From the NCBI GenBank assembly GCA_002457605.1, contig NTJT01000010.1:1-37633 (forward strand): DNA of 37,633 nucleotides, in the 5' to 3' direction. A model generated the notes under the pieces. The model had not been told where the DNA came from. It was given only the letters and a program-made list of their open reading frames with translations, and searched no databases. How positions within the stretch are numbered: the stretch's first letter is position 1; every line of letters starts with the position of its first letter. The stretch comes from Marine Group II euryarchaeote MED-G34. GTDB lineage: Archaea; Thermoplasmatota; Poseidoniia; Poseidoniales; Thalassarchaeaceae. Shown in pieces: positions 14,061-16,565 of the stretch. The position numbers and the translations under genes are program-made.

Positions 14061-14199
14061 GTCTCTAATGATTCGTCAACTCACTAGAGAGTGCCTTCCA
14101 CATGGTTATCCAACTACCGAGATTATCATAAGAGCGAGGCCCTAGGACGATGCACTCCTTAGGGGGTATAGTATAACCTGGTAGTACCGCGGGCTCCAG

Positions 14200-14312
14200 T
14201 TGCACGGGAATGACGACAAGTGGTTTTTCTGATGGCTTTGATGACCAACTGGAGCACCGACCTGTCGCAACCCGAGAGCGTGCGCTTTCCGGGTGCACGC
14301 TAGGCGGAAGAC
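14200..14312 (+). other. tRNA-Trp intron (bulge-helix-bulge type)
   Basis: The intron interrupts the anticodon loop between positions 37 and 38. A bulge-helix-bulge can be drawn with three-base bulges AGT (14198-14200) and ACA (14311-14313). The four-pair helix between CTCC (14194-14197) and GAAG (14307-14310) contains one C-A mismatch, and the inner helix TGC/GCG follows. The splice points are therefore predicted, not certain to the base. Besides the box C/D element, the 3' part folds a 7-bp hairpin AGCGTGC/GCACGCT at 14277-14283 and 14295-14301. Confidence 0.75.
14204..14265 (+). ncRNA. Intron-encoded box C/D guide RNA targeting C34 of its own tRNA-Trp
   Basis: The boxes are C ATGACGA (14210-14216, one change from consensus), D' CTGA (14229-14232), C' TTGATGA (14238-14244) and D CCGA (14257-14260, one change). 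Both guide stretches are 12 bases and the D'-C' spacer is 5, the normal archaeal geometry. The terminal stem ACGGG/CCTGT (14204-14208, 14261-14265) holds boxes C and D together. The D guide contains CAACTGGAG (14246-14254), a perfect 9-base complement of CTCCAGTTG (14194-14202) across the exon 1-intron junction. The base paired to the fifth nucleotide upstream of box D is C14196, which is C34. Tryptophan pre-tRNA introns of Haloferax and Pyrococcus carry such guides. The D' target was not identified. Confidence 0.85.
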
Positions 14313-14409
14313 ACCCGCTGATCTGGGTTCAAATCCCAGTGCCCCCACCATTTCGGCATCTGCGTACAGCATTTCGAGCAACTCTGGCATAGGTTGGGTT
14401 GAAGGACTT

Positions 14410-14429: not shown

Positions 14430-16565
14430 ATGGACACCAAGGCACTCAACGCCGTCCTATGCGCTTTCTTACTGGTCCCACTAGCCGGGAGCGTAGCCCC
14501 TCCTCCTCTGTCCGAAATAGACAGCGAGGGGCTGCAACTGATGGGGCAAGGTCAGCAGACTACGGTTCCTGAACAAGTTGCCGTCAGTTGGGCCAACCCC
14601 GGGCCGTGGTGGGAATGGACTTCACTAGACATCGACAGGAATGGGATTCATGACTCCCTTCAAGAAAAATCTGGCATGGTGTGGGTTGGACTTTCATATT
14701 CCCGAGAAGTCACTATGTCTGATCATGAGGTGTTGAAATCCATGGGTTTCGAGGTTAAGATGGAGGCACACTCGGTTGACGCTGTTCTTCTAGGGCAAGT
14801 GAAATCTTCAGATTTGACAATTCTATCTCAGGTCGAAGGCGTCGTAATGGTCGAAGGATATGGTACAATCGAACTTTTCGGAGATATTCAGACTCCAGCG
14901 GTCAAGGCTAGAAATTCTACACTATACCCCGGAGCCTGGGACTTAGGAGTTACCGGCAGAGGAGTCAACATAGCCTTGACAGACACCGGAGTTGACAATG
15001 AGCATCCGGGCCTAGTTGGCAAATTTGTAGCTGGATACGACGCTGTTTGCTACAACCCAACCGACCCAAATTGCGTACTCGCAGGTTTTGGATTCAGGCC
15101 CACTGACGGTACTTTCGACCCAGACGATGGAAATCAGCACGGAACTGCATGCATGGGCATGGCTAGCGCAACCGGAATCGAGCCCGACGGAAGTCAATCT
15201 AACTTCACAGGCTCAGCACCAGATGCCAAACTAGTGGATGTACGTATAGGGACTGACTTAGGGGCGGGACCATTCGAAAACTACCTCCTAGAACAGGAAT
15301 TTTATGAATCGGCTATGAACGGTATTCAATGGATAATAGATCACAAGGACGATGCTTGGCAGGGCGCTTCGGAGGAGGATTATGGCATAGACATTATTTC
15401 TCTCTCATGGGGGATAACTAGTCACGAAACAGGAGGATCCGATGGTACCGATATGCATAGCAGGATTCTCGATGAGGCCATGGAGGAAGGAGTCACTGTT
15501 TCGGTTGCAGCAGGTAACTCCGGACCAGATAATGATGGACTAAGTGGAATGGGTTCTTCTTCGCTTTCAGTTACAGTCGGGGCTACTGATGATATGAACA
15601 CAATTGACCGTTCAGATGACACGGTTGCCAGCTATTCCAGTAGAGGCCCTAGGAGGGACAATGGCGATGGAAACCCTCTGGATGAGCTAAAGCCAGAAAT
15701 CAGCGCCCCAGGCACCAATATCATACAAGCCGAGGGTTGTGTGACAAGCGACGGGTGTAACAACTTCATCGGGGGCGACGCGTCTCAGAACACCTACACC
15801 GGCCGCGGCAGCGGAACCTCCTACGCTACTCCGGCGGTTTCTGGAGTCATCGCTTTAGTCATCGAGGCCAATGGCAATCTCACCCCTCTGCAGATTAAGG
15901 AAGTACTCAAGCAGACCGCGGAGCGCAGGGGTGAGCCCAGTGCCCCAGAAGTCGATCCCTACTGGAATCGCGACTTCGGATGGGGAATGGTCGACGCACG
16001 TGCAGCTGTCTCCCTCGCCCTTCATCTCGATGAGACCGGGCAGACCGAAGCAGTGGATGCCAGTCTCCAGAACCATCTGCTGAATCTAATCGATTCGAAT
16101 GGAACAATCAACGTCACCGGACACGCTTGGGGCCAACTCGGCAGCATTGAGGGAGTAGAGTTCAGAATCGACGGAGGAGAATGGCAGGATGCAACGTACT
16201 CCGCTGTTCCCGGAGAGATTGGCGCTCTTACACCTTTCATGTGGCATGTGATTCTAAATCCGACCAAACTCAGCGAGGGCAGCCATCAGATTGAGGTCAG
16301 AGCGATGGCTGAAGGCGCCTTCTCACTCCCTGTCCTAGTGACAGTGCACGGCACCGCTGGCAGCGCCACCGACTTCTCAGTTCCACCCATCGTCATTGTC
16401 GGCATCCTCGTCGTATTCGTGATTTGGGTAGCCTCTCTGGCTTTAGTTCGACTTCGCTCGGATGGCGAGATTGACAGCCTAATCTCAAGATTGAGGAAGG
16501 AGGATGATTCAGTCGTTGATGAAGTACTCGAAGCTGAATTAATCCCCGAACAGGGGCCTGAATAG
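14430..16565 (+). CDS. Secreted, membrane-anchored subtilisin-like serine protease (S8 family)
   Basis: 711 residues. A signal peptide (residues 1-22, ending around GSVAPPP) is followed by a propeptide-like region to about 160. The peptidase domain has its catalytic Asp in LTDTGVDNEHPG near 184, His in DGNQHGTACMG near 236, and Ser in GSGTSYATPAVSG near 460. The oxyanion Asn is in VAAGNSGPDN near 360. After about 530 comes a beta-rich region, and the C-terminus has one membrane anchor (PPIVIVGILVVFVIWVASLA) followed by a charged cytoplasmic tail. The mature enzyme therefore probably acts on protein outside the cell while tethered. Together with the peptide ABC importer at the left edge it supports growth on protein. 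Confidence 0.93.
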   Translation: MDTKALNAVLCAFLLVPLAGSVAPPPLSEIDSEGLQLMGQGQQTTVPEQVAVSWANPGPWWEWTSLDIDRNGIHDSLQEKSGMVWVGLSYSREVTMSDHEVLKSMGFEVKMEAHSVDAVLLGQVKSSDLTILSQVEGVVMVEGYGTIELFGDIQTPAVKARNSTLYPGAWDLGVTGRGVNIALTDTGVDNEHPGLVGKFVAGYDAVCYNPTDPNCVLAGFGFRPTDGTFDPDDGNQHGTACMGMASATGIEPDGSQSNFTGSAPDAKLVDVRIGTDLGAGPFENYLLEQEFYESAMNGIQWIIDHKDDAWQGASEEDYGIDIISLSWGITSHETGGSDGTDMHSRILDEAMEEGVTVSVAAGNSGPDNDGLSGMGSSSLSVTVGATDDMNTIDRSDDTVASYSSRGPRRDNGDGNPLDELKPEISAPGTNIIQAEGCVTSDGCNNFIGGDASQNTYTGRGSGTSYATPAVSGVIALVIEANGNLTPLQIKEVLKQTAERRGEPSAPEVDPYWNRDFGWGMVDARAAVSLALHLDETGQTEAVDASLQNHLLNLIDSNGTINVTGHAWGQLGSIEGVEFRIDGGEWQDATYSAVPGEIGALTPFMWHVILNPTKLSEGSHQIEVRAMAEGAFSLPVLVTVHGTAGSATDFSVPPIVIVGILVVFVIWVASLALVRLRSDGEIDSLISRLRKEDDSVVDEVLEAELIPEQGPE

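Follow-up and report, generated by a model that had tools for sequence, protein, structure and literature searches.

The window analysed here, a stretch of 37,633 nucleotides, belongs to a 1.03-Mb MAG that is 66% complete. ARAGORN, run with introns allowed, placed a tRNA-Trp(cca) gene exactly at 14162-14350; its intron, 113 nt long, lies between positions 37 and 38, and the spliced product takes the standard 76-nt cloverleaf fold. Because of the long intron and the non-consensus boxes, the gene went undetected by default scans, both those without intron handling and those of Rfam at gathering thresholds. Boxes C, D′, C′ and D follow one another within the intron just as the earlier note had described them, with two 12-nt guides and a closing stem (Table 1), and this is the arrangement by which an archaeal tRNA-Trp intron guide is recognized: a gene with a 37/38 intron and boxes in order at standard spacing. 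Directly downstream lie a subtilisin-like (S8) serine protease gene and then an aminotransferase gene (window 14430-16565), and the order of these two genes next to tRNA-Trp is kept in the Poseidoniales genomes checked. The encoded 3′ CCA (14348-14350) of the window gene is missing in many relatives (e.g., L075 and L096), being variable within the order.

Table 1. Features of the intron-containing tRNA-Trp gene; positions are those of the window.
Feature	Position	Strand	Basis
5′ exon of tRNA-Trp(CCA), positions 1-37	14162-14199	+	ARAGORN with introns; spliced cloverleaf
Target of the D guide, GCUCCAG/UUG: G31 to G37 plus the first three intron bases	14193-14202	+	Ten contiguous Watson-Crick pairs; C34 opposite D+5
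Anticodon C34-C35-A36	14196-14198	+	Within the 5′ exon
G37	14199	+	Last base of the 5′ exon
113-nt intron, canonical position 37/38	14200-14312	+	ARAGORN; borders fixed by length-variable and intronless homologues
C/D closing stem, 5′ strand (partner 14261-14265)	14203-14207	+	Sequence; changes in relatives
Box C, AUGACGA (consensus RUGAUGA; 3b, fourth base of UGAUGA, is C)	14210-14216	+	Sequence
D′ guide spacer, 12 nt, CAAGUGGUUUUU	14217-14228	+	In register with C39; mismatches at +3 and +5
Box D′, CUGA	14229-14232	+	Sequence
Box C′, UGAUGA, canonical	14239-14244	+	Sequence
D guide spacer, 12 nt, CCAACUGGAGCA; 14246-14255 pair with 14193-14202	14245-14256	+	Pairing
Box D, CCGA (consensus CUGA; second base, 3n, is C)	14257-14260	+	Sequence; pair analysis
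C/D closing stem, 3′ strand	14261-14265	+	Sequence
Hairpin outside the C/D module, AGCGUGC (14277-14283) / GCACGCU (14295-14301)	14277-14301	+	Variants in relatives
3′ exon of tRNA-Trp, positions 38-73 plus encoded CCA	14313-14350	+	ARAGORN

Matches to the gene came from 92 of 98 relatives and, at a loose threshold at which not every match is a tRNA-Trp, from 278 of 295 genomes across the phylum. The C′-guide-D pattern was found on 118 contigs of the genome collection, and among the matches listed the titles name Thalassarchaeum, Thalassarchaeaceae, Poseidoniaceae, Poseidonia, Poseidoniales, Marine Group II and unplaced Euryarchaeota or Thermoplasmatota MAGs; the tRNA-Trp sequence of JADHRW010000002.1 (Ca. 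Thalassarchaeum sp.) is that of G022, from the window's own family (L061, L114). These matches place the window in the Poseidoniales (Marine Group II), probably in the Thalassarchaeaceae. From the Poseidoniia, 107 unique precursor sequences were extracted, and the comparison with related genomes that the earlier note had proposed found the same intron, boxes and register in 96 of them, boxes or intron being missing in some of the others. Overall, the comparison shows a guide that was handed down throughout the phylum, closely fits its target and was lost several times. Many MAG contigs end within the tRNA-Trp gene (L299, L301, L303 and others), a hint, through partial copies at contig ends, that the gene might be an integration site, which was rejected because each case checked proved to be a contig that breaks off within the conserved gene.

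Outside boxes and guides, the closing stem varies among relatives from CGG/CCG to CAG/CUG, the window holding the G·U intermediate, and the outer hairpin occurs as AGCACGC/GCGUGCU and AGUGUGC/GCACACU in L062 and L064. A pseudoknot of ACCCG with CGGGU within the intron hairpin was considered and rejected, since it is absent from L018 and L029. The intron of genus g20 (L174, L251 and L252) has an extra stretch before box C with a repeated GGGA-like stem, CACGGGAUUCGAACGGGAAUGAAGA.

As had been noticed before, boxes C and D of the window are each one base off consensus (UGACGA and CCGA). When K-turn positions are named after PMC4382518, with an assignment to the boxes that is our own, the two deviations are the two partners of a single K-turn pair, 3b·3n, changed from U·U to C·C, and hence not independent. 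Archaeal box C/D RNAs are strongly U:U at 3b:3n (PMC5689011). By published rules, a C at 3b promotes ion-induced folding (PMC4382518), and G:C at -1b:-1n and 4b:4n works against it (PMC5689011). Nearly all Poseidoniales have UGACGA as box C, and their 3b·3n pair is mostly C·C, with U·U in some members of genus g15 (which have close kin with C·C) and C·U or A·C elsewhere; the pair is A-U in genus g20 (L174, L251, L252), and across the phylum C-G, G-C, U-A and A-U also occur (loci L279-L298). The neighbouring pair 4b·4n alternates between G-C, U-A and A-U across Thermoplasmatota and is Watson-Crick in 13 of the 15 distinct box combinations (permutation p = 0.00015, uncorrected for relatedness), and the sheared G·A pairs of the C/D K-turn are retained in nearly all homologues. 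The C/D boxes are thus predicted to be able to form a K-turn, which appears to be retained as a structure while its sequence drifts. Other Thermoplasmatota carry boxes that are far from consensus yet compensated (UGACUG/AGGA in L281, UGAUAG/UAGA in L290, UGAGUU/ACGA in L298), and standard C/D finders would probably miss them.

The D guide forms ten contiguous Watson-Crick pairs with the anticodon loop and the start of the intron, its position +5 standing opposite C34; the complementarity had been recognized earlier as a run of nine bases, which is in fact one of ten (14193-14202). In 3000 dinucleotide shuffles of the intron, scored in register next to a CYGA box, a run of ten never occurred and a run of nine occurred once. 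The D+5 rule falls on C34 here, as proposed, and likewise in all 96 distinct C/D-bearing homologues, each with at least eight contiguous pairs, box D having been placed in these by its spacing from C′ and not by complementarity. At position 37 and guide position 8, 62 haplotypes have G/C, five have A/T and none is mixed, so that base and guide partner were switched jointly in at least three lineages: the A/T state is found in Poseidoniaceae g14 (L084, L086, L157), independently in Thalassarchaeaceae L115, and it separates the sister-order genera g22 and g23. This co-switch is compensatory change between guide and target, and no other observation speaks as strongly for a guide in use. Together with the conserved register it strongly supports, on comparative grounds, the core of the earlier note, an intron-encoded box C/D guide directed at C34 of its own tRNA; taken as a whole, that note was partly supported.

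The D′ guide presents a different picture. In the window it lies in register with position 39 and pairs at eight of ten positions, with mismatches at D′+3 and D′+5, so the claim that the guide has ceased to point to position 39 is right as to the pairing, this species having lost the pair at the target base, and wrong as to the register, which is kept. C39 had been taken as a departure from U39, which it is not: C39 (sometimes U39) faces the D′ guide throughout the phylum. Distant Thermoplasmatota commonly have a D′ guide CGGGUUU that, read by eye, pairs with AAACCCG across the 3′ splice site and places D′+5 on C39; the D′ guide of L062 and L063 forms nine pairs. Over the whole set this register still holds: a mean of 5.05 of 7 positions are paired in it, whereas permuting guides and targets gave 4.65 (at most 4.93 over 2000 permutations) and sliding the register gave 2.0-4.0. 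The window, like its nearest kin (L001-L004, L006), has a T at D′+5 opposite C39, whereas the congeners L007, L008 and L010, and L005 of genus g7, have a G that makes a G:C pair, which suggests that the D′ guide is being lost within the window's genus. The complementarity search for another D′ target, which the earlier note had called for, covered 30 tRNA loci of the same genome and LSU and SSU rRNAs of relatives (the assembly itself is without rRNA) and gave chance-level matches only, mostly in flanks. Singh and colleagues reportedly found, in 2004, that methylation of U39 follows that of C34, and that the target base should preferably, though not of strict necessity, be in a Watson-Crick pair.

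Several Poseidoniia have given the module up. Introns of 40-41 nt without a C/D module occur in L091-L093, decayed modules in L094, L095 and L254, and intronless tRNA-Trp genes in genera g3 and g24, in G036 of g5 and in parts of g4 and g12. Relatives that are spliced without the boxes had been named beforehand as the observation that would speak against a guide; they do exist, as scattered losses and not as the rule of the family. Since these relatives are box-less or intronless, C34 modification would not be indispensable. Genus g8 includes both states, a full C/D intron with G37 (L064, G056) and a box-less mini-intron of 40-41 nt with A37 (L091-L093; G019, G029, G047). Loss by way of a second tRNA gene elsewhere was rejected for G060, G014, G035 and the mini-intron genome G019, in which the gene has the same S8 protease and aminotransferase neighbours as in the window; the locus being the same, the intron was changed in place. 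Fibrillarin and Nop5 are still present in intronless genomes. A search for a stand-alone replacement guide with the pattern TGANGAN{2,9}TYTGGAGNNCYGA, which guides with weaker boxes would escape, gave one lone match over 33 intronless, mini-intron or decayed genomes (G014, L231), and this was taken as chance, as it is missing from congeners.

Position 37 is A in five of about seven loss lineages and in three of about 20 guide-keeping ones (Fisher p = 0.011, from a hand count uncorrected for phylogeny). As an intact guide allows the change from G37 to A37 only with a matching change in the guide, and five of the seven loss lineages have A37, the guide may act as a brake on position 37. We tentatively propose, as a reading that is possible but still somewhat improbable, that about seven Poseidoniia lineages saw the guide shrink, decay or vanish at its original locus with no replacement detected, that it brakes change at position 37, that the lineages without it are natural knock-outs of tRNA-Trp Cm34, and that the K-turn left the U·U rule (for C·C, C-G, G-C, U-A and A-U) under pair-wise compensation.

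Could the complementarity of 14193-14202 and 14246-14255 be a structural splicing stem of the pre-tRNA, with C/D-like boxes that are coincidental? Both stretches could form a hairpin in naked RNA; however, four boxes at standard spacings, covariation in the K-turn and similarity to Rfam sR3 would then all have to be accidents, a stem would tolerate shifts relative to box D that the invariant +5 register does not display, and the mini-introns of L091-L093 keep their splice-site sequences without any such stem, all of which makes this the least credible of the readings weighed, one we give almost no weight. A module that is a fossil here, kept in an intron that persists only through splicing and with neither guide in use, seems very unlikely as well, if slightly less so. 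The unpaired target base of the D′ guide, the off-consensus boxes C and D and the viable kin with decayed or lost introns would agree with it, but the guide and the boxes hardly vary, unlike the D′ guide and the remainder of the intron. The box departures also fall on paired K-turn partners, position 37 changes together with its guide base, and introns in genuine decay (L094, L095, L254) bear little resemblance to this one.

A third question is whether the guide acts on the same pre-tRNA molecule that carries it. Guide and target do sit in one transcript, and PMC7994747 uses the wording 'trans-acting or intramolecular' and elsewhere has the methylation in cis. The Haloferax guide, however, is described as acting in trans in the reviews PMC4090602 and PMC11408192, and in the window, judging from the coordinates, the target ends at 14202 against a closing stem that starts at 14203, which would leave a cis complex whose stem stays closed with a linker of zero length over a ten-pair duplex. 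For these two reasons we prefer action in trans; the term 'cis-acting' of the earlier note finds no support, and a guide working in cis seems unlikely, with a better chance than either of the readings above.

The explanation that we hold to be very probable is therefore that of an intron serving as box C/D guide RNA for Cm34 of pre-tRNA-Trp, pairing over the splice junction, probably in trans and with a D′ guide in decay. It builds on the observed anatomy, register, conservation and covariation and on proteins present in the same genome or genus. L7Ae (G000:C31) and the splicing endonuclease (G000:C6) are encoded in the window's own genome; fibrillarin and Nop5 were not found in this 66%-complete assembly, and adjacent genes for both occur in 29 of 32 relatives, including the congener G002, which matches the window exactly over the tRNA-Trp locus. 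L7Ae would bind the C/D K-turn and the C′/D′ motif, to be joined by Nop5 and fibrillarin; the D guide, coming most likely from another pre-tRNA or from an excised intron, would pair with the anticodon loop and the 5′ splice junction, and fibrillarin would 2′-O-methylate C34. The D′ guide, reaching across the 3′ splice junction, may once have served to methylate position 39, and would now be decaying in the genus. By inspection, the splice site may be a bulge-helix-bulge of the relaxed type, with C32, U33 and C35 taken up in its central helix; guide pairing and splicing would then be mutually exclusive. Since the guide duplex lies over the splice junction and occupies anticodon-loop bases that the bulge-helix-bulge requires as well, methylation most likely comes earlier than cutting by the splicing endonuclease. 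That methylation must precede splicing, as was claimed, is thus plausible at the level of inference: of the ten bases in the duplex, three belong to the intron, and the D′ pairing spans the 3′ splice site. Cm34 itself, which the register predicts for the window, is a recorded modification of tRNA-Trp in Haloferax, Thermococcus and Sulfolobus (PMC7668247).

By every feature tested, the window element is homologous to the known archaeal tRNA-Trp intron guide and would work in the same manner, short of the formal Rfam threshold. In a below-threshold scan the closest Rfam family was sR3 (RF01133), with E = 2.5e-4 and 24.2 bits against a gathering cut-off of 41, which the sister-order homologue L247 exceeds with 43.4 bits. 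The family has the same C/D layout, and in our reading of its alignment the consensus D guide, CCGUUGGAGCA-CUGA, reads the anticodon-loop UGCUCCAA, and the D′ guide CGGGUCU reads AGACCCG. Reviews bear out the earlier statement that the device is already known from Haloferax and Pyrococcus, and extend it to other Euryarchaeota. According to PMC4090602, PMC11408192 and PMC7994747, Haloferax volcanii has the same tRNA-Trp(CCA) with a 37/38 intron that forms one C/D RNA with two guides, to positions 34 and 39; the window differs in box C (UGACGA), box D (CCGA), C39 and the lost D′+5 pair, and action in trans is presented as shown there, whereas we infer it for the window. The Pyrococcus intron sRNA (sR50 in PMC7994747) shares the host gene and has predicted C34 and C39 targets in P. 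furiosus (PMC7668247); it comes from a hyperthermophile, and the likeness is one of description, not of direct sequence comparison.

The intron guide has so far been described mainly in halophiles and hyperthermophiles, and we found no account of it for the Poseidoniales in the open literature, subscription papers being outside the scope of the search. In Haloferax, the tRNA-Trp intron can be deleted without loss of viability, according to PMC4090602. In the clade studied here, many close relatives form natural pairs that share the locus and differ in whether it carries the guide; guide and target also show matched changes, and through such pairs the cost of losing Cm34 would become testable by comparing UGG and UGA decoding in sister species.
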